This document shows positions 4,274 through 12,831 of a DNA stretch of 13,051 nucleotides, piece by piece. Source of the stretch: Flavobacterium psychrophilum (GTDB taxonomy: Bacteria > Bacteroidota > Bacteroidia > Flavobacteriales > Flavobacteriaceae); the NCBI GenBank assembly GCA_945861915.1, contig CAMAWK010000045.1, forward strand, positions 1-13,051. Direction: 5' to 3'. Made by a program: the position numbers and the translations under genes. The notes under the pieces are model-generated. The model was not told the origin of the DNA and made no database searches. It saw only the letters and a list, made by a program, of their open reading frames with translations. Positions within the stretch are counted from its first letter, which is position 1. Each line of letters opens with the position of its first letter.

Positions 4274-5344
4274 TTATTTCAACCCAAACTGATAAATAGT
4301 GGTTTGTGTGTATAATTCATCTGGATTTAGCATGGTTGAAGGAAAACTAGGCTGGTTAGGCGAATCTGGGAAATGCTGCATTTCTAAACAAAATCCTGAG
4401 CGAAAATCGTATCGATTTGAGTTTTTTCCTTTGTTTATACCATCTAAAAAATTACCCGTGTAAAATTGAACACCTGGCTCGGTAGTAAATGCCTTTAATT
4501 CAATACCTGTCGAAGATTCTGAAACGGTTGCTACCCAACTCAATTCGTTGTTTTCTTTATTCAAAACCCAATTCTGATCGTAGCCGTTTGCCTGAATTAA
4601 AGGAAGGTAATTATCATTTATTCTTTCTCCTATTTTATGAGCCAGTCTAAAATCCAAGGGCGTATTGGCGACGCTTCGGATTTCTCCAGTAGGAATCATG
4701 GTGTCATCGGATGGAGTAAAACTATCTGCATTGAGAACCAATTCGTGTGAGTCTATGGTGCCAACTCCCGCTCCTTTCAGATTAAAATACACATGATTGG
4801 TTAAATTAACTAACGTTGTAGCATCGGTTTTTGCCCAATACTCTATTTTAATTTCGTTGGCATTGGTCAATGTATAAGTAACTTTTACTAACAAATTTCC
4901 TGGAAAACCTTCTTCGCCATCATTAGATAGGTAGCTTAGTTCTATTGCTTCTTCTCCGTTTTTGGTTAGAAAAGGATTGGCATCCCAAACTTTTTTGTCA
5001 AAGCCTTTTTGTCCTCCGTGAAGGGTGTTGGGCCCGTTATTGGTATAAAGCGAATAGGTTTTATTATCTAGTTCAAAATTACTTTTGGCAATTCTATTAG
5101 CAAAACGACCTACAATTGCCCCAAAATATTTTTCCTCTATTTGATATTCATCAATAGATTCCAATCCCAAAACTACATCAACCCATTCGTTTTGATTATT
5201 TGGAACTATCAAACTAACTATTCTAGCTCCAAAATTAGTTATTTGACAAACCAATCCGTTTTTGTTTTTCAGGTTGTAGAGCCTTACTTCTTTTCCGTCA
5301 ATTTGGGTTGTGAAATTAGTTTGTGTTAAAATTTCAGAAATCAT
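4274..5344 (-). CDS. galM: Aldose 1-epimerase (galactose mutarotase)
   Basis: A 356-residue enzyme interconverting beta- and alpha-D-galactose, which supplies the alpha anomer to galactokinase. Family landmarks are present: GRFANRI (N83, R84), NTLHGG (H109), the catalytic-acid histidine in TNHVYFNL (H184), the substrate-binding aspartate in GYDQNW (D256), and the catalytic base in TEPGVQFYTGN (E289). The length fits the family, and no signal peptide is seen, so it should be cytoplasmic, unlike some secreted Bacteroidetes mutarotases. It lies 57 bp downstream of galE on the same strand with no hairpin between them, so the two are probably cotranscribed. It is the last gene of the galactose cluster on this side and converges on the DUF1493 gene. 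Confidence 0.96.
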   Translation of the reverse strand: MISEILTQTNFTTQIDGKEVRLYNLKNKNGLVCQITNFGARIVSLIVPNNQNEWVDVVLGLESIDEYQIEEKYFGAIVGRFANRIAKSNFELDNKTYSLYTNNGPNTLHGGQKGFDKKVWDANPFLTKNGEEAIELSYLSNDGEEGFPGNLLVKVTYTLTNANEIKIEYWAKTDATTLVNLTNHVYFNLKGAGVGTIDSHELVLNADSFTPSDDTMIPTGEIRSVANTPLDFRLAHKIGERINDNYLPLIQANGYDQNWVLNKENNELSWVATVSESSTGIELKAFTTEPGVQFYTGNFLDGINKGKNSNRYDFRSGFCLEMQHFPDSPNQPSFPSTMLNPDELYTQTTIYQFGLK

Positions 5345-5401: not shown

Positions 5402-6421
5402 TTATTTTACCTTTCTAACTTTTTGCTCCCATTCCCAAGCACTGGCTACAGCTTCGTCAAGAGTAGATTGGGTTTTCCAACCTAAAACCGATTTTGCTTT
5501 ATCAGTGTTTGCGTATGCAATGGTCACATCACCTTCTCTTCGGTCAACAATGCTGTAAGGCAATTTAGTACCACTCATTTTTTCGAAGCTATTGATAACA
5601 TCTAAAACCGAACTTCCTGTTCCAGTTCCTAAATTAAAGGTTTCTACTGCCGCTTCATTTTGTTTCTTAATCAAACGCTCTAAAGCAATTACATGCGCTT
5701 TGGCAAGATCGACCACATGAATATAATCACGAATACAGGTTCCGTCTGGCGTAGGATAATCATTGCCATACACCATTAATTCTTTGCGAATTCCTAATCC
5801 GGTTTGGGTAATAAATGGAACTAAATTTTGCGGAACTCCAATAGGCAATTCCCCAATATTGATGGATGGATGCGCTCCAATTGGATTAAAATAACGCAAC
5901 AAAATGGCTTTTATATTACTTACTTTGGTTACATCGGTAATGATTTCTTCGCCAATTTGTTTGGTATTCCCATAAGGAGACAAGGCGGGTTGTACTGGTG
6001 AACTTTCGGTGATAGGCATCGTTTCTGCTTGGCCGTAGACCGTGCAAGAAGAACTGAAAATAAAGTTAGCTACTGGTTTTTTCTCTAATTCTTGTAAAAT
6101 ATACACTAAACTAGCAATGTTATTTTCATAGTACAACAATGGATTTGTAACACTCTCTCCTACTGCTTTTGAGGCTGCAAAATGAATGATATTATCAACA
6201 TCAGAATGTCTTTTGAAAAAATCAATCACCGATTCCTTGTTTCTTAAATCAATGTTTTCAAAAACAGGTAATTTTCCAGAGGTTGCAAAAATACCTTCTA
6301 CCACCTCTTCGGATGAATTAGAAAGATTATCAATAATTACTACTTCGTATCCTGCATTCTGTAATTCAACAACGGTATGTGATCCAATGAATCCTAAACC
6401 TCCTGTAACTAATATTTTCAT
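5402..6421 (-). CDS. galE: UDP-glucose 4-epimerase
   Basis: A 339-residue short-chain dehydrogenase-type epimerase, almost the same length as the E. coli enzyme (338). It interconverts UDP-galactose and UDP-glucose using tightly bound NAD, closing the Leloir cycle. The N-terminal Rossmann motif is GGLGFIG (residues 7-13), followed by the acidic IIDNLSNS. The active site is visible as FSSSCTVYG (S125 in the position of E. coli S124) and SPYGNTK (Y150, K154). The C-terminal part has the YGNDYPTPDGTCIRDYIHV and FNLGTG sequences typical of GalE. It is cytoplasmic. It starts 160 bp after the symporter gene on the same strand, with a terminator-like hairpin in between, so it may depend on its own promoter or on read-through. 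galM follows. Confidence 0.97.
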   Translation of the reverse strand: MKILVTGGLGFIGSHTVVELQNAGYEVVIIDNLSNSSEEVVEGIFATSGKLPVFENIDLRNKESVIDFFKRHSDVDNIIHFAASKAVGESVTNPLLYYENNIASLVYILQELEKKPVANFIFSSSCTVYGQAETMPITESSPVQPALSPYGNTKQIGEEIITDVTKVSNIKAILLRYFNPIGAHPSINIGELPIGVPQNLVPFITQTGLGIRKELMVYGNDYPTPDGTCIRDYIHVVDLAKAHVIALERLIKKQNEAAVETFNLGTGTGSSVLDVINSFEKMSGTKLPYSIVDRREGDVTIAYANTDKAKSVLGWKTQSTLDEAVASAWEWEQKVRKVK

Positions 6422-6495
6422 TTTCTTGTAATTAAATGTTTTTTATTATTCTATTTCGAATTTAAATTAATGAGCTTTGTTTTAGTTGTAAGTAT

Positions 6496-6530
6496 AAAAA
6501 AACTTTAGAGACTTGAACCTCTAAAGTTTT
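6496..6530 (-). terminator. Intrinsic terminator after the symporter gene
   Basis: AAAACTTTAGAG (6499-6510) and CTCTAAAGTTTT (6519-6530) make a perfect 12-bp stem around an 8-base loop. Read on the minus strand, the stem ends in a run of seven T, beginning within the stem and extending to 6496, about 50 bases after the symporter stop. It separates the symporter from galE. On the plus strand it has a shorter T run and could act weakly there too. Confidence 0.8.
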
Positions 6531-6581
6531 TAAATAATTATCATGGATTTATTAAATTATAAATCATTTAATCTTAATATT

Positions 6582-8270
6582 TTACCAGAAAATAGTATAC
6601 AATGCTACTAGAATTCCAGTTATAATTAAAGTTCCTATAGCAAAACCATTAGTAACTTTAAACATTTTTGAATCAATTTCTAATCCTTTTGATTTGTATC
6701 CTCTCTTCTCGTCATACAAACTGATTAATATCATTAGGAAAACACAAATTACAAATACAAATCCCATACGGTCTATAAACGGAATTTCATACAACATTGT
6801 TTTGTCTTTTTGTTCTACCAATGTAGCAAAACCAGAACTGTATAAAAATTCTAGATTCACAAAACCAGGTAAGAATTTAAAAATTACTGACAATACAAAT
6901 CCTCCGATTGTTGCAAACATCGCTGCATTTGAACTTGTTTTTTTCCAGAAGAACCCCAGAATAAACATAGCAAAAATTCCTGGACTCACGAATCCTGTGT
7001 ACTCTTGAATAAATTCAAAACCTCCTTTTTTATCAATTCCTAACATTGGAGCAATAACAACAGCAATTATCATCGCTACCAAAACAGTAATTTTCCCTAC
7101 TCGTACCATTTTCAATTCACTAGCATCTGTATCAATTTTTTTCTTAAAAATATCTAAGGTAAAAATGGTTGAAATACTATTAACTTTCCCAGCCAATGAA
7201 GCAACTACTGCTGCAGTTAAAGCGGCAAAAGACAATCCTTTTAATCCAACAGGAAGTAAATTCAATAATACTGGATATGATTTATCTGGGTTTATAACTC
7301 CATCAGCTCCTAAAAGTTCTGTTTGCAAACCGCCTTTCATATAAATTACATAAGCTGCAATTCCAGGTAAAACAACGATTATCGGCATTAATAATTTTAA
7401 GAAAGCAGCAAACAAAATACCTGTTCTAGCTGTTTTTAAATCAGCTCCCAAAGCTCTTTGAGTGATGTATTGGTTACAACCCCAATAATTTAAATTCACA
7501 ATCCACATTCCTCCAAATAAAACCGCTAAACCTGGCAAACTTGGAAAATTAGGGTTGTCTTTCTTAAATATCATGTGGAAATGATCATCGGATTGATTTA
7601 GCATATAATTAAATCCATCCACTAATCCGTGTTGTCCGTTTAATTCAGCTACTTTATCCAAAGCTAAATAAGTTGTAACTAAACCTCCAAAAATCAAGAA
7701 AACTACCTGAATTACATCGGTATAACCAATTACTTTCATTCCTCCTAATGCAATGACAATGGCAAAAAATGCTAAAGCGTACATACATAAATTAATCTCA
7801 ATTCCCGAAATTCCATTAATTGCTAAAGCTCCCAAATAAAGGATAGACGTTAAATTAACGATTACATAAAGTAACAACCAAAACACAGCCATAATCATAG
7901 CCACGTTTCCGTCGTAACGCTGACTCAAAAATTGAGGCATGGTGTAAATCTTATTTTTTAAATAGACCGGTATAAAAAATACGGCTACAATCACCAAAGT
8001 TAAGGCCGCCATCCATTCATACGTTGCAATAGCAAGTCCCATTTTGAAACCATTTCCAGACATAGCAATAAACTGCTCAGATGAAATGTTAGACGCAATA
8101 AGTGATGTTCCGATTGCCCACCAAGTAAGCGAACCTTCTGCTAAAAAATAATCGTGTGATGCCGATGTTGATTGTGTTTGCTTTTTTCTGTAAACATAAT
8201 AGCCATAGCCTGCTACTACAAAAAAGTAAAAAAGAAATACTAAATAATCAGCCAATTGTAATGTCTTCAT
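6582..8270 (-). CDS. Sodium/galactose (glucose) symporter, SSS family, vSGLT type
   Basis: A 562-residue inner-membrane protein with about 14 membrane segments. It closely resembles Vibrio vSGLT, which couples galactose uptake to Na+. Sugar-site residues recalled from vSGLT line up: N61 and Q66 in SNISSEQFI, E85 in ATYEWM, N259 and the gate tyrosine Y262 in NLNYWGCNQY, K292 in FLKL, and Q422 in IQEYTG. One difference is A88 where vSGLT has S91. TM8 shows the VVASLAGKVNS stretch that lines the sodium site. The start MKTLQLADYLVF matches the usual short N-terminus before TM1. It is divergent from the GntR regulator, with a shared regulatory region of 189 bp, and is followed by a terminator, galE and galM. 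The setting makes galactose the probable substrate; glucose could also be carried. Confidence 0.95.
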   Translation of the reverse strand: MKTLQLADYLVFLFYFFVVAGYGYYVYRKKQTQSTSASHDYFLAEGSLTWWAIGTSLIASNISSEQFIAMSGNGFKMGLAIATYEWMAALTLVIVAVFFIPVYLKNKIYTMPQFLSQRYDGNVAMIMAVFWLLLYVIVNLTSILYLGALAINGISGIEINLCMYALAFFAIVIALGGMKVIGYTDVIQVVFLIFGGLVTTYLALDKVAELNGQHGLVDGFNYMLNQSDDHFHMIFKKDNPNFPSLPGLAVLFGGMWIVNLNYWGCNQYITQRALGADLKTARTGILFAAFLKLLMPIIVVLPGIAAYVIYMKGGLQTELLGADGVINPDKSYPVLLNLLPVGLKGLSFAALTAAVVASLAGKVNSISTIFTLDIFKKKIDTDASELKMVRVGKITVLVAMIIAVVIAPMLGIDKKGGFEFIQEYTGFVSPGIFAMFILGFFWKKTSSNAAMFATIGGFVLSVIFKFLPGFVNLEFLYSSGFATLVEQKDKTMLYEIPFIDRMGFVFVICVFLMILISLYDEKRGYKSKGLEIDSKMFKVTNGFAIGTLIITGILVALYTIFW

Positions 8271-8382
8271 AATGTGGTTTAGTTTTAGTTGGTTTTAGTA
8301 AATGTCATTAAAAAATTAATTGCAATTCTTGAAAAAATTAACACTTAAATTTTGATTTAACTATTTATTTTAAAGTTGGCTG

Positions 8383-8390
8383 TAAAAATA
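8383..8390 (-). promoter_or_regulatory. Probable -7 element of the symporter promoter
   Basis: On the minus strand this reads TATTTTTA, one base from the Bacteroidetes -7 consensus TAnnTTTG. It lies 24 bp downstream of the ACTG edge of the candidate operator at 8412-8430, the same spacing as upstream of galK. No TTG -33 element is found at the usual distance. It would give a leader of about 105 nt. Confidence 0.55.
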
Positions 8391-8411
8391 GCATAATACT
8401 TGACTTTTACA

Positions 8412-8430
8412 TTACAGTACCTACCAGTTT
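8412..8430. promoter_or_regulatory. Candidate GntR operator, copy 1 (symporter / gntR intergenic)
   Basis: CAGTACCTACCAGTTT at 8415-8430 is identical over 16 bp to 11934-11949 upstream of galK. The full box is a direct repeat of TACCAGT with 10-bp period; here the left copy is degenerate (TTACAGT). It lies 29 bp upstream of the gntR start codon and about 140 bp upstream of the symporter start, so one site may serve both genes. Assignment to the adjacent GntR protein is inferred from position and recurrence. Confidence 0.75.
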
Positions 8431-8459
8431 ATTTGTATCTTGCCTAAAAACTATTTCGA

Positions 8460-9458
8460 ATGAAAATAATCTCTATCTATAAAAATAATAGGTCGCCCAT
8501 TTACAAACAAATTATTTTCTCTATTGAAAAGGCAATTGAAGAGAAAAGAATAAAAATAAATGACAGACTTCCATCGATAAATAAGGTTTGTATAGAGTTT
8601 TCATTGTCGCGAGACACTGTTTTACAGGCGTATGATGAATTGAAAAAAAGAGGAATTATTTATGCCATTCCCGGAAAAGGATATTATGTTAAGAGTTTGG
8701 GTGTAAGTATCAAAAACAAAGTGTTTTTGCTTTTTGACGAATGGACTGCTTTTAAGGAAGATTTATACAATTCATTTATCAATAAATTAGGAGCAAATGT
8801 ACAGGTAGATATTTATTTTCATCATTTTAATGAAATAGTTTTCCAAAAATTAATAAATGAAAGTAACGGAAACTATACCAAATATGTGGTAATGCCATCA
8901 AATTTTAGAGAAATAAATTCTCTCTTACACACCCTACCAGTTCAAGATGTTTACATTTTAGACCAAACCAATCCTGAGTTGACTAAATTTTCTTATGTTG
9001 CTCAAAATTTTATAAAAGACATTTACAACGCCCTTTTAGAAGGTAAATCGAGATTGGATTTATATCAAAAATTAATTTTGATTTTCCCCGGTTCTAGAGA
9101 ACCTTTAGAAATGAAAATTGGGTTCGAAAAATTTTGTGTTAATCACAATTTTGAATATGAAATCATACCTGAATTTAACAATTATGAAATCAAAAAAGGT
9201 CAGGCTTTTGTCATCCCAAACGACAGAGATTTGGTACAAGTAATTGAGCAATCAAAACTAAATGGACTAAAAATCGGGCAGGATATTGGCATTATTTCAT
9301 ACAATGAAACTCCGTTGAAAAAAGTAGTTGAAAACGGAATTACAACCATTTCTACCGATTTTGAAAAAATGGGCGAACTGCTTGCTACTATGATTTTAGA
9401 GGGTGAAAATAAACAAATAGAAAATAAATGTTATTTAAAACTCAGAAACTCACTCTGA
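8460..9458 (+). CDS. GntR-family transcriptional regulator with LacI-like sugar-sensing domain
   Basis: A 332-residue regulator. Residues about 8-79 form a GntR winged helix: PIYKQIIFSIEKAIEEKRI, then the helix-turn-helix SINKVCIEFSLSRDTVLQAYDEL (about 39-61), ending in the wing GIIYAIPGKGYYVKS. The remaining 250 residues resemble the periplasmic-binding-protein/LacI fold of AraR-type GntR proteins. They include a late segment ISYNETPLKKVVENGITTISTDFEKMGELLATMILEG and the closing LKLRNSL, which matches the usual RxS end of such domains. No FadR-type helical or UTRA domain is seen. It is probably a cytoplasmic sensor of galactose or a Leloir intermediate, judged from its place between the symporter and galT-galK. 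The candidate operator lies just upstream, so autoregulation is plausible. Whether it activates or represses cannot be read directly. Confidence 0.9.
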   Translation: MKIISIYKNNRSPIYKQIIFSIEKAIEEKRIKINDRLPSINKVCIEFSLSRDTVLQAYDELKKRGIIYAIPGKGYYVKSLGVSIKNKVFLLFDEWTAFKEDLYNSFINKLGANVQVDIYFHHFNEIVFQKLINESNGNYTKYVVMPSNFREINSLLHTLPVQDVYILDQTNPELTKFSYVAQNFIKDIYNALLEGKSRLDLYQKLILIFPGSREPLEMKIGFEKFCVNHNFEYEIIPEFNNYEIKKGQAFVIPNDRDLVQVIEQSKLNGLKIGQDIGIISYNETPLKKVVENGITTISTDFEKMGELLATMILEGENKQIENKCYLKLRNSL

Positions 9459-9510
9459 TTTTAATTCGTGTTTCGAATATTAAACGACTGAATTTATCAA
9501 GAAAAATATT

Positions 9511-9537
9511 CCTGCAAGGTTTTAAAAACCTTGTAGG
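9511..9537. repeat. Palindromic repeat A downstream of gntR and galT
   Basis: CCTGCAAGGTTT (9511-9522) pairs with AAACCTTGTAGG (9526-9537) through 12 positions, one of them a G-U pair, with a 3-base loop. It lies between the convergent gntR and galT genes. The sequence after it is only moderately T-rich, so intrinsic termination would be weak. From general knowledge, CCTGCAAGGTTTT palindromes recur in Bacteroidetes genomes. Confidence 0.7.
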
Positions 9538-9558
9538 TGTGTCTTCTTGACATAAATA

Positions 9559-9587
9559 CCTGCAAGGTCAAAAAAAGACCTTGCAGG
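9559..9587. repeat. Palindromic repeat B, near-copy of repeat A
   Basis: CCTGCAAGGTC (9559-9569), a loop of seven A, GACCTTGCAGG (9577-9587): a perfect 11-bp stem. It shares the CCTGCAAGGT arm with repeat A, 48 bp away, so the arms of the two hairpins can also pair with each other. It lies 13 bp past the galT stop and could end transcription from either side, although U-tracts are poor on both strands. Confidence 0.7.
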
Positions 9588-9600
9588 AAAATTAAAAAAA

Positions 9601-10650
9601 TTATTTGCTTTTATAATGTATGTCTGAACAACTTCTCAAAGCATCAGCACTTTTTTCTGGAGTAATATCTCTTTGAGATTCGCCCATCATTTCGTAACCT
9701 ACCATAAACTTTTTTACTGTTGCCGAACGAAGTAATGGCGGATAAAAATGCATGTGAAATTGCCACTCTGGATGTGGTTTATTATCAGTTGGTGCTTGAT
9801 GTATTCCTGAAGAATACGGGAAAGAAGTATTGAAAAGGTTGTCGTATTTTATGGTTAATTGTTTCAAAATTACCGCAAAAGCCGATTTTTCGATTTCATT
9901 AAATTCAGTGACAATAGAAACATGTCTTTTGGCAATAATCATGGTTTCAAAAGGCCAAATTGCCCAAAAAGGAACCAAAGCTACGAAATGTTCATTCTCG
10001 ATAACAATTCGTTCTTTTAGCTTTAACTCTTGTTCTAAATAATCTAATAGTAAGTTCGAGTTGTTTTTAGCAAAATAATCGCTCAAACTGTTATGTGTTT
10101 TTTCAACTTGTGTTGGCAAAGAAGATTGAGCCCAAATTTGACCGTGCGGATGCGGATTACTACATCCCATAACACTTCCTTTGTTTTCAAAAATTTGAAC
10201 GTAGTTAATGTAATCTACAGCACCTAATTCTGAATATTGTTTTTGCCAAGCGGTGATTACACTTTCTATTTCAGTATTCGTTAATTCCGGCAAAGTGAGG
10301 TTATGATTGGGAGAAAAACAAACAACTTTTGCAATCCCACGCTCAGATTTAGCAATAAAAAACGAATCCGTATTTACTTCTTGTTGCTCGATAACATCTT
10401 CTTTTAATGCAGCAAAATCATTATCAAAAACAAAACAATTTTCATATTGGTCATTAATTTCGCCATTGGCACGAACATTCCCCGGACATAAATAACACTC
10501 AGGATCATACGAAGGTAAAGTATTAGTTGCAATAACTTCATTTTGCCCTTGCCATGGTCTTTTCGCTCGATGAGGAGAAACCAATACCCATTCATTGATT
10601 AATGGATTATATCTTCTGTGCGGATCTTCGTTTATATCAAATTTTTTCAT
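9601..10650 (-). CDS. galT: Galactose-1-phosphate uridylyltransferase
   Basis: A 349-residue HIT-superfamily enzyme transferring UMP from UDP-glucose to galactose-1-phosphate. It belongs to the E. coli GalT type (class I): RRYNPLINEWVLVSPHRAKRPWQG at the N-terminus, the zinc ligands C52 and C55 in CYLCPGN, H116 in SPNH and H167, and the active-site motif NPHPHGQIW with the nucleophilic histidine H169. The C-terminal HPEWQFHMHFYPPLLRS motif carries further metal-binding histidines. The length matches the E. coli enzyme. It starts 4 bp after the galK stop, so translation is probably coupled. It ends next to two palindromic repeats shared with the convergent gntR. It is cytoplasmic, and no key residue is missing. 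Confidence 0.97.
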   Translation of the reverse strand: MKKFDINEDPHRRYNPLINEWVLVSPHRAKRPWQGQNEVIATNTLPSYDPECYLCPGNVRANGEINDQYENCFVFDNDFAALKEDVIEQQEVNTDSFFIAKSERGIAKVVCFSPNHNLTLPELTNTEIESVITAWQKQYSELGAVDYINYVQIFENKGSVMGCSNPHPHGQIWAQSSLPTQVEKTHNSLSDYFAKNNSNLLLDYLEQELKLKERIVIENEHFVALVPFWAIWPFETMIIAKRHVSIVTEFNEIEKSAFAVILKQLTIKYDNLFNTSFPYSSGIHQAPTDNKPHPEWQFHMHFYPPLLRSATVKKFMVGYEMMGESQRDITPEKSADALRSCSDIHYKSK

Positions 10651-10654
10651 AATC

Positions 10655-11821
10655 TTATAAAGTATAAAGTGTTGTGCCGTTTGTTATTTTAACATCGTAG
10701 TTTTTCAATTCTATTTGGAATTTATCAAAATACAATGGTTTGATTTTGTTTTTAATTTCTTCTTCATGCCCTTTTTTAACTAAATTAATTGTACAACCAC
10801 CAAAGCCGCCTCCCATTAATCGGGAACCAATAATAGCTGTTTCTGATTTAGCAAAATCGACCAAAAAATCTAGTTCTTCACAACTTACTTCATATTCTCT
10901 TGACAATCCATCATGTGTTTCAAAAAGTAGCTGACCTAATTCTTCGATGTTCCCGTTATCCAATGCTACACAAGCTTTTGAAACTCTCGCAATTTCTTTT
11001 ACAACATAGTGACATCGTACAAAAACATCGCCTTCCAACTGATCTTTTACAGCAAAAAGATGTTCTTCGGTACAATCTCTAAAACTTTTTATTTCAGGGA
11101 ATTTTTTATTTACTACCGAAATACCATAATCACAATCTTCTCTGCGTTTGTTGTAAGCAGAGGAAACCAGAGAATGTTTCACGTTACTGTCTAATAAAAC
11201 AAGTGAATAATCTCCAAAATCGGCATTGTGGTATTCATATTCCAATGTTTTACAATCAATTTTGATTACTTTATTTTCAAGCCCTAAGACACTGGCAAAC
11301 TGATCCATAACCCCACAGTTAATCCCAACCCAATGTTCTGCTTTTTGCCCCATTAATGCAATATTAACTAGCTCAATAGTAAGGTTGTTTAACTCTTTTA
11401 CACCTTTCAAAAACCCACATTCTAATGCAGCAGAAGATGATAATCCAGAACCTGACGGAATGTTGCTGCTAAAAACACAATTTAAACCTTCGAATTGAAA
11501 ACCATTTAAATGCAGTTGATTCACAACTCCACGAATATAATTTGTCCAAACTTTATCATCTAAACTTTGTTCTTTAGAAAAATCGGCTGAAAATTCATCA
11601 TTTATGTCTAAAGCAATAATTCTAGAAGTATTGGTTTTGCTTTTTTCAAATGCAAAACAAATGATTTTATCTATGGCTGCGGGTAACACAAATCCATCAT
11701 TATAGTCAATGTGTTCTCCTATAATATTAATTCTTCCCGGAGATAAAATCACTTTTTCAGGCGCATTCCCAAAATGTTTCTGAAAAGCTTGTTTGGTTTT
11801 TTCTATTAATTGGTTATCCAT
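10655..11821 (-). CDS. galK: Galactokinase
   Basis: A 388-residue GHMP kinase phosphorylating alpha-D-galactose at C1 with ATP. The galactokinase signature SPGRINIIGEHIDYNDGFVLP is at residues 27-47 (R30, E36, H37, D39). The ATP-binding GHMP loop IPSGSGLSSSAALE spans 121-134. The catalytic base is D173 in GINCGVMDQFAS, and the C-terminal GHMP motif is LMGGGFGGCTI. The length is normal for the family. It is the first gene of a galK-galT operon, preceded by a candidate -7 element and the operator copy 2. The start MDNQLIEK at 11821 fits the usual short N-terminal extension before the signature. It is cytoplasmic and complete. Confidence 0.97.
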   Translation of the reverse strand: MDNQLIEKTKQAFQKHFGNAPEKVILSPGRINIIGEHIDYNDGFVLPAAIDKIICFAFEKSKTNTSRIIALDINDEFSADFSKEQSLDDKVWTNYIRGVVNQLHLNGFQFEGLNCVFSSNIPSGSGLSSSAALECGFLKGVKELNNLTIELVNIALMGQKAEHWVGINCGVMDQFASVLGLENKVIKIDCKTLEYEYHNADFGDYSLVLLDSNVKHSLVSSAYNKRREDCDYGISVVNKKFPEIKSFRDCTEEHLFAVKDQLEGDVFVRCHYVVKEIARVSKACVALDNGNIEELGQLLFETHDGLSREYEVSCEELDFLVDFAKSETAIIGSRLMGGGFGGCTINLVKKGHEEEIKNKIKPLYFDKFQIELKNYDVKITNGTTLYTL

Positions 11822-11901
11822 AATTTTAAATTATATGTTTTGGTTTAGCTTTTAGCGGGTTTTTACAAATTGAATTAAAAAAAAATGCAAAATTTGGATT
11901 T

Positions 11902-11909
11902 CAAAAATA
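11902..11909 (-). promoter_or_regulatory. Probable -7 element of the galK-galT promoter
   Basis: On the minus strand this reads TATTTTTG, an exact match to the Bacteroidetes -7 consensus TAnnTTTG. It lies 24 bp downstream of the candidate operator edge (CAGT at 11934-11937). No TTG is seen in the -33 region, where the operator abuts instead. The implied leader is about 75 nt. Confidence 0.6.
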
Positions 11910-11930
11910 ACTCATTTTAACATTAATACT

Positions 11931-11950
11931 TACCAGTACCTACCAGTTTG
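11931..11950. promoter_or_regulatory. Candidate GntR operator, copy 2 (upstream of galK)
   Basis: TACCAGTACCTACCAGTTTG: two perfect TACCAGT boxes (11931-11937 and 11941-11947) in direct orientation with a 10-bp period, so they fall on the same face of the helix. Sixteen bases are identical to 8415-8430 in the symporter/gntR gap. It is 110 bp upstream of the galK start. Confidence 0.78.
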
Positions 11951-12003: not shown

Positions 12004-12047
12004 AAAAAAATGCTCATAGAAAAATCGAAAGGACTTTTCTATGAGCA
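12003..12047 (-). terminator. Strong intrinsic terminator after the DOMON/T9SS gene
   Basis: TGCTCATAGAAAA (12011-12023) and TTTTCTATGAGCA (12035-12047) form a perfect 13-bp stem with an 11-base loop. On the minus strand it is followed by eight T (12010-12003). It lies about 40 bases after the stop of the secreted-protein gene and should insulate galK from it. Confidence 0.9.
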
Positions 12048-12087: not shown

Positions 12088-12831
12088 TTATTCAATAATT
12101 ATCTTCTTCCAAGCCTTGTCTGAATCACTTTGAAGTTCTAACAAGTATACGCCTGATTGTAAGTTTTTCAAGTTAATTTCGTTGTTTTTAGAATTGCCTT
12201 CTAATTCGACAGTCTCAACCAAAGAACCTATTTGCGAATAAACCGTCAGTTTTTTTAAGAATGACTTAGATTCAATTTTGAAAGTACCATTTGACGGATT
12301 TGGATAAACGGATGCAGAGTTTAGAGAAAAGTCTTCTACGCCCAAGCTAGTTCTAGTTAACGTTCTAGAGGAGCGAGTGCCATTACTATGATAACCTAAT
12401 GTAGCATCATCTCCCAATCCATATATAATAGAGATAGAAGCAGAAGAATTAACAAAAGTAAAATCACCCGAAGAGGTTAATGGTCTTGTAGCAACTATGG
12501 TTCTAGTTGATGAAGGTGCTGAATCGGATACAATAGTCCAACTTTGAGAAGCATCCGCAGAAGGTGTAGTTCTCCCACCTGAAGTATAATCTCTATTAGA
12601 AGCATCACTCCAAATAAACATGTCGGTTGCAGAACTCATCGAAGTTCCTCCAAAACCGATTCCAAGCCATAAATCTTTTGGACCTGTCAACGTTAAAGTA
12701 ACATTAGTTGCGTCTGTGTCAATTTTTACTGACATTGTACCGGTTAAAGTGACTGTTCCAGTAGTAAAAGATTGTGCAAAAGTGGCGAAAAAAACCAGTA
12801 AGGCTACAATCGAAAATAATTGTTTTTTCAT
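12088..12831 (-). CDS. Secreted DOMON-domain protein with T9SS C-terminal sorting domain
   Basis: A 247-residue exported protein. Residues 1-20 are a Sec signal peptide (MKKQLFSIVALLVFFATFAQ). Residues about 24-150 look like a DOMON beta-sandwich, with LWLGIGFGGTSMSSATDMFIW near the start and IIYGLGDDATLGYHSNGTRS at the end. In heme-binding DOMON proteins (cellobiose dehydrogenase cytochrome, AIR12) the iron ligands are a Met before the GAD-like motif and a late His; M65 and H148 are in suitable positions. Residues about 173-247 are a type IX secretion sorting domain: VYPNPSNGTFKIES, then LQSGVYLLELQSDSDKAWKKIIIE. It should therefore be on the cell surface or released. It starts 7 bp after an ankyrin-repeat gene and ends at a strong terminator. 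The function may be extracellular electron transfer or sugar binding; no catalytic partner domain is present. Confidence 0.88.
   Translation of the reverse strand: MKKQLFSIVALLVFFATFAQSFTTGTVTLTGTMSVKIDTDATNVTLTLTGPKDLWLGIGFGGTSMSSATDMFIWSDASNRDYTSGGRTTPSADASQSWTIVSDSAPSSTRTIVATRPLTSSGDFTFVNSSASISIIYGLGDDATLGYHSNGTRSSRTLTRTSLGVEDFSLNSASVYPNPSNGTFKIESKSFLKKLTVYSQIGSLVETVELEGNSKNNEINLKNLQSGVYLLELQSDSDKAWKKIIIE

Follow-up and report, generated by a model that had tools for sequence, protein, structure and literature searches.

Two minus-strand gene units, symporter-galE-galM (8270 to 4274) and galK-galT (11821 to 9601), flank a plus-strand regulator gene (8460-9458) in the 13,051-nucleotide stretch of DNA analysed here (the window), and a shared sequence is located upstream of both units. 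The question raised by this locus is whether the regulator would act on the two units as an activator, as the initial annotation had proposed, or as a repressor. The GntR family, to which the regulator belongs, is known mostly for repressors. The features that bear on this question are collected in Table 1.

Table 1. Coordinates of the genes, promoter elements and operators of the galactose locus, given as positions in the window.
Feature	Position	Strand	Remarks
galM, aldose 1-epimerase	4274..5344	-	
galE	5402..6421	-	160 bp after the symporter gene
Sodium:solute symporter (SSF)	6582..8270	-	leads the first target unit
Symporter -7 box, TATTTTTA	8383..8390	-	24 bp from operator edge; predicted +1 at 8378
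Operator dyad, symporter side, ACTGGTAGGTACTGTA	8413..8428	-	predicted -50 to -35, centre -42.5, relative to the symporter start
Regulator -7 box, TATCTTGC	8436..8443	+	probable, TAnnTTGY type; 7 bp from operator; predicted +1 at 8448
Regulator	8460..9458	+	GntR winged helix (residues 15-77) and LacI-type sensor (Peripla_BP_3)
galT	9601..10650	-	4 bp after galK
galK	10655..11821	-	
galK -7 box, TATTTTTG	11902..11909	-	24 bp from operator edge; predicted +1 at 11897
galK site read as a tandem, head-to-tail 10-mers ACTGGTAGGT and ACTGGTAAGT	11928..11947	-	read from the sequence
Operator dyad, galK side, ACTGGTAGGTACTGGT	11932..11947	-	predicted centre -42.5
Hairpin (16 bp) followed by a T run	12011..12047	-	upstream of the galK promoter

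The shared sequence had been described as a 16-mer, CAGTACCTACCAGTTT, and it is indeed found on the plus strand at 8415-8430 and 11934-11949, in the same orientation. A search of the whole window allowing up to 3 mismatches returned just these two copies, where 0.07 would be expected. The positions stand, but the 16-mer is not the best unit: the operator is better defined as a 16-bp imperfect dyad, ACnnGTAnnTACnnGT, of which the symporter copy (8413-8428) lacks the final GT. The core of this dyad fits the operator plan of AraR, keeping A1, G5T6A7, T10A11C12 and T16; bases A1, G5, T6 and T16 are described as important for AraR binding (PMC4218819). The site can also be read as head-to-tail 10-mers, and at the symporter these are ACTGGTAGGT and ACTGTAATGT. 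If the operator is taken as a direct repeat of a single unit containing GGTA, it resembles that of NanR of E. coli, a GntR-family protein that binds (GGTATA)3 repeats as three dimers (PMC8012715). It differs in its period, which is 10 bp here and 6 bp in NanR, and NanR is a repressor.

Both the GntR and the Peripla_BP_3 families of Pfam exceed the cut-off in the regulator. A fold search with its AlphaFold model (mean pLDDT 89) was topped by LacI-family structures, and the N-terminal part of the predicted structure matched several GntR-type DNA-binding domains, including that of AraR. The closest orthologous regulator locus found is that of F. alvei, with 78% identity when the whole regulator is compared. 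The SRDTV stretch of the recognition helix showed no variation in the 30 aligned orthologues (30/30).

At both the symporter and galK, exactly 24 bp separate the operator edge from the -7 box, as initially annotated, and the two spacers do differ in sequence, being identical at just 9 of 24 positions. The galK box is an exact TAnnTTTG, the -7 box of Flavobacterium sigma-A promoters, and the symporter box carries 5 of its 6 fixed letters. In both F. johnsoniae and F. psychrophilum this box occupies -12 to -5 (PMC6847099, PMC9723704), which together with the 24-bp spacer places the dyad at a predicted -50 to -35, with its centre at -42.5. For a 25-bp spacing, the predicted centre is -43.5.

The spacing was explored in 299 Flavobacterium genomes, which as members of one genus are non-independent, using the composite ACTGGTAGGTACTG-N(8 to 38)-TAnnTTTG. 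There were 122 matches in 104 of the 299 genomes, 106 of them with N=24 and 16 with N=25, and no other spacing occurred; the operator has the same orientation throughout. These 122 composites represent 111 distinct sequences, which fall into 66 clusters (58 at 24 bp and 8 at 25 bp) whose spacers share less than 80% identity. The plain 14-mer ACTGGTAGGTACTG has 130 sites in 106 of the 299 genomes, compared with 2 for the reversed 14-mer used as a control. The distance from motif to TAnnTTTG in related genomes, which the initial annotation had offered as a check on its reading, bears out the fixed spacing: of the 130 exact sites, 122 have the box 24 or 25 bp away.

The genes downstream of the operator encode galM-like epimerases, galK, SusC-type TonB receptors and members of GH2, GH20 and GH36, and in the window the symporter; for six of the target ORFs the coordinates were determined by hand. 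Since the same spacing is found before unrelated genes, descent alone is a poor explanation. The earlier suggestion that fixed spacing reflects contact with RNA polymerase is strengthened by this observation, all 122 composites being at 24 or 25 bp before such genes.

Eight of the 130 sites have no exact composite, and their boxes were assigned by eye from the sequence. In four of these, a box close to the consensus stands at 24 or 25 bp, with one mismatch in L171, L173 and L174 and two in L177. Two are regulator-only operators, accompanied by a second operator before galM (L176) or galK (F. alvei), which suggests that the operator is retained also for the regulator's own control. The remaining two lie within an ORF (L172) and near no called ORF (L175). 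The single genome of L176 has two exact operators, at positions 1129 and 1566 of the reverse strand and 437 bp from each other; the regulator-side copy has no -7 box at 24 or 25 bp, and the copy before the galM-like gene has a perfect one, 24 bp away. The site's two roles are here divided between two operators.

A scan of genome contigs also returned 189 relatives of the regulator, of which the best 80 loci (48-78% identity) were analysed. Upstream sequence was sufficient at 77 loci, and at 60 of these the 14-mer, with up to 2 mismatches, is present on the upstream side of the called start of the regulator, no more than 300 bp away; at 4 of the other 17 (L006, L007, L013 and L021) it is present under a longer ORF call. 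For the 58 sites with a called downstream gene, -7 matches with 5 or 6 of the 6 letters number 23 at offset 24 and 15 at offset 25, with at most 5 at every other offset from 0 to 59. Removal of identical contexts gave a set of 52 sites from 90 loci, and the groups compared among non-redundant sites (Flavobacterium, other Flavobacteriales and Bacteroidales) were assigned from record titles. On the target side, 12 of 17 Flavobacterium sites and 11 of 18 sites from other Flavobacteriales have their best box 24 or 25 bp away. A separate sample with 26 of 27 sites at 24 or 25 bp (ties counted) was given no weight, being partly composite-selected and including the in-ORF site L172.

The relatives' loci also show the association with galactose genes. 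At least one of galK, galT and galE is found at 53 of the 80 loci; with galM homologues and SSF genes counted as well, the number rises to 61 of the 80. Many contigs are short, but even among the 55 full-length loci, 11 lack all five of these genes.

The link between motif and regulator gene is established by their co-occurrence. An orthologue of the regulator is present in 162 of the 299 genomes overall and in 105 of the 106 motif genomes (Fisher p 3e-37). In the one exception, G064, the motif begins at base 331 of the contig, and the regulator gene may therefore be lost at the contig edge. Together with the AraR-like operator core, this co-occurrence supports the proposal that the GntR regulator is the protein that would bind the operator. 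The pattern A...GTA..TAC...T was absent from all 15 loci of paralogous regulators (34-41% identity).

The initial annotation had also pointed to the lack of a -33 TTG. This is true of both promoters in the window but is ordinary in the genus, and is not evidence for activation. Promoters of F. johnsoniae show little -33 motif genome-wide (PMC6847099), and the operator itself occupies most of the positions where a TTG could stand; the absent TTG was for these reasons rejected as a sign of activation. At a gap of 17-23, a TTG is present in 2 of 111 distinct module promoters versus 26 of 100 in a taxonomically mixed background; a stricter comparison of non-redundant Flavobacterium promoters gave 1 of 39 versus 6 of 31 (p 0.04). 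Directly after the operator a GTATG is conserved, with T2 in 95, T4 in 93 and G5 in 79 of the 95 distinct 24-bp rows. This puts TATG 19 bp from the box, which makes a degenerate -33 fused to the operator possible.

The symporter-side operator (8413-8428) also overlaps the predicted -35 to -20 region of the regulator's own probable promoter, a point that the initial annotation did not raise. The box of this promoter appears to differ in type from those of the targets; the TAnnTTGY type, named SM5, is described in F. psychrophilum (PMC9723704). Transcription of the regulator and that of its regulon may therefore depend on different forms of the polymerase. A box of TAnnTTGY type is located 6 or 7 bp from the operator at 14 of 21 Flavobacterium regulator promoters. 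For non-redundant sites, the best-scoring own-promoter box is at 6-8 in 11 of 15 Flavobacterium sites; in other Flavobacteriales it ranges from 7 to 23 in 14 of 15 sites. Compared across families, it is the target-side distance that is conserved and not the regulator-side one, with the caveat that Flavobacterium by itself also shows a nearly fixed own-promoter distance, at one orthologous place.

Outside the genus, a looser composite was applied to 249 genomes belonging to the same family as an Aquimarina genome, with spacings determined by hand from the sequences. Six genomes gave matches, at 22, 15, 21, 24, 25 and 25 bp, and the reversed control pattern gave 2 matches in the same 249 genomes. 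The 24-bp case (G076) already belongs to the Flavobacterium set. These mixed spacings indicate that the lock is a property of Flavobacterium and is less strict in other Flavobacteriales.

The Bacteroidales have a different arrangement. Upstream of galT/galK, a -7 box of at least 5 of 6 letters starts 13 nt before CAGT at all 16 scored sites, and the operator spans a predicted +1 to +14, in the orientation opposite to that of Flavobacterium. Scored sites had at most 2 mismatches and were no more than 30 nt from a called galT/galK start (n=16); this leaves aside L042, L046, L078 and L080, which are further off or have no called start, and sites above the mismatch limit, one example being near 7060 in L064. 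As judged from the predicted start, an operator over +1 to +14 is a repressor layout. This layout is also fixed in spacing, and fixed spacing alone is therefore no proof of activation. At the intergenic site between galM and the regulator, the Bacteroidales distances vary, with boxes at 25-27 toward the regulator in 6 of 9 and at 12-16 toward galM in 11 of 12 non-redundant cases. In L033, L050, L054, L059, L065, L067, L070 and their relatives, directly upstream of galT/galK, the box abuts an extended operator, TAnnTTTRCCnACCAGTACC, in which the -7 box and the operator extension may have letters in common.

The reading that best accommodates these data, and which we hold with modest confidence on sequence evidence, is that an AraR-like regulator activates its targets from -42.5 and represses itself. 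The operator would be bound by the neighbouring AraR-like GntR/LacI-chimeric regulator (called GalR-like here), which, with the dyad centre at about -42.5, would contact the RNA polymerase holoenzyme like a class II activator. Once galactose or a derivative is sensed, the regulator would recruit the holoenzyme to promoters that depend on the -7 box. The bound regulator would also limit its own synthesis, because the same operator covers approximately -35 to -20 of its TAnnTTGY-type promoter. In Bacteroidales, the orthologue probably represses galT/galK through the operator over the start site, and the predicted layouts argue for activation in Flavobacterium and repression in Bacteroidales. The data show the motif, its spacing and orientation, the target genes and the link to the regulator gene; binding, the sign of the effect, the inducer and the transcription starts are inferences. 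Of the activator role proposed at the outset, the case for polymerase contact was strengthened, the identity of the regulator was supported and the missing-TTG argument did not hold; activation is a candidate reading, to be set against the Bacteroidales repressor layout, the repressor AraR and the looser spacing beyond the genus. A broader proposal, which we make tentatively and with less than even confidence, is that one AraR-like family switched between repressor and class-II-like activator by moving and turning its operator. In Flavobacterium it would control a galactose/galactoside regulon through ACTGGTAGGTACTGGTATG-N19-TAnnTTTG, with autorepression at the same site.

The main rival is a conventional repressor, which we consider rather unlikely. 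Here the apo-regulator would block polymerase at the -33 region until released by galactose, and the operator edge would double as the degenerate -33 (TATG, 19 bp from the box), so that shifting it would weaken the promoter. The conservation of T2, T4 and G5 after the operator agrees with this, as do the repressor layout of the Bacteroidales at 16 of 16 scored sites and the fact that AraR of B. subtilis represses (PMC4218819), and the same allosteric logic would serve in all lineages with no change required. However, the little -33 motif of F. johnsoniae (PMC6847099) leaves a fused -33 with little to explain, and the one-base tolerance looks tighter than the variable -33/-7 spacing reported in B. 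thetaiotaomicron. The asymmetric letters of the operator persist in Bacteroidales with the promoter reversed, and are therefore not there for sigma only. It is because the genus hardly uses a -33, and because these letters are kept in Bacteroidales, that the conventional repressor is ranked below activation.

We regard as improbable a dual switch of the MerR or FadR kind, in which the regulator is always bound at one position and represses without the sugar and activates with it. The operator of MerR sits between the two promoter elements, unlike the operator described here. The fixed-spacing position adjoining the -33 and the orthologues with a repressor layout would nevertheless be compatible with such a switch, and FadR provides a dual regulator within the GntR family (PMC4537474). 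Hardly credible is the explanation that the 14-mer is part of an alternative sigma factor promoter, with the regulator a bystander. The constant distance to the -7 box would be accounted for, but the box is an ordinary TAnnTTTG, and the motif contains the AraR core and accompanies the regulator gene in 105 of the 106 motif genomes. Moreover, a box at 24 or 25 bp is lacking from two copies that stand before the regulator alone, and the Bacteroidales copies sit over +1.

Activation from -42.5 would have parallels in known systems. Class II activators such as CRP act at -41.5. The predicted centre of -42.5 or -43.5, with starts deduced from the -7 box, agrees with that position and overlaps the upstream promoter element, and the tolerance in Flavobacterium is about one base (122 of 130 sites; looser beyond the genus). 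The difference from CRP is in the protein family, in a start that is derived from the box and in activation being a candidate. FadR activates from about -40, and has a sensor domain and ligand that differ from those of this regulator; the RNA polymerase and promoter type are also different. In E. coli this GntR-family protein represses fad and activates fabA/fabB (PMC4537474), a dual role such as the one proposed here.

The regulator has the same domain plan as AraR of B. subtilis, a GntR winged helix with a LacI/GalR-type sensor (PMC4494728), and the AraR operator core, GTAnnTAC with A1 and T16 (PMC4218819), is found in ACTGGTAGGTACTGGT at galK. The genes controlled here would be those of galactose and galactosides (Leloir pathway), in contrast with the arabinose genes of AraR. 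In Firmicutes, AraR is reported to control xylose and galactose genes too (PMC4494728), which indicates that arabinose control is not strictly defining for the AraR subfamily. AraR differs also in being a repressor, and the Flavobacterium operator in being strongly asymmetric and locked 24 or 25 bp from a -7 box. FucR and ManR of Bacteroides thetaiotaomicron are likewise Bacteroidota GntR-family regulators of monosaccharide genes, with other targets, and a galactose regulator is absent from the table of that study (PMC3878776). A galactose regulator of this kind was not found in searches of the open-access literature, a scope that leaves subscription papers mostly outside. A flavobacterial GntR repressor of alginate genes, AusR, has reportedly been described.

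The activation by transcription factors of the unusual RNA polymerase of Bacteroidota is, to our knowledge, poorly understood; in Flavobacterium, the promoters of this enzyme have little -33 signal. The module offers a compact system for this purpose, with more than 100 natural promoters and a one-base spacing rule beside orthologues with a repressor layout. It makes testable both activation by a GntR/LacI chimera and a change from repressor to activator. It also predicts a galactose/galactoside regulon, including SusC-type receptors, GH2, GH20 and GH36, in part of the genus, the exact motif being present in 106 of the 299 genomes.

Some further elements of the window lie between and around the genes. 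Rfam at the gathering threshold gave zero matches in the whole window. The hairpin upstream of the galK promoter is a probable terminator of the DOMON/Por-secretion-tail gene (12088-12831), insulating the galK promoter from that upstream gene. Paired inverted repeats on CCTGCAAGG(T) occupy 9505-9593, where the regulator gene and galT converge, and are probably a two-way terminator or a dispersed repeat. An inverted repeat of 22 nt (6489-6540) lies in the gap between the symporter and galE (6422-6581), which is 160 bp long and AT-rich; this gap may hold an additional promoter or processing site for galE and galM.
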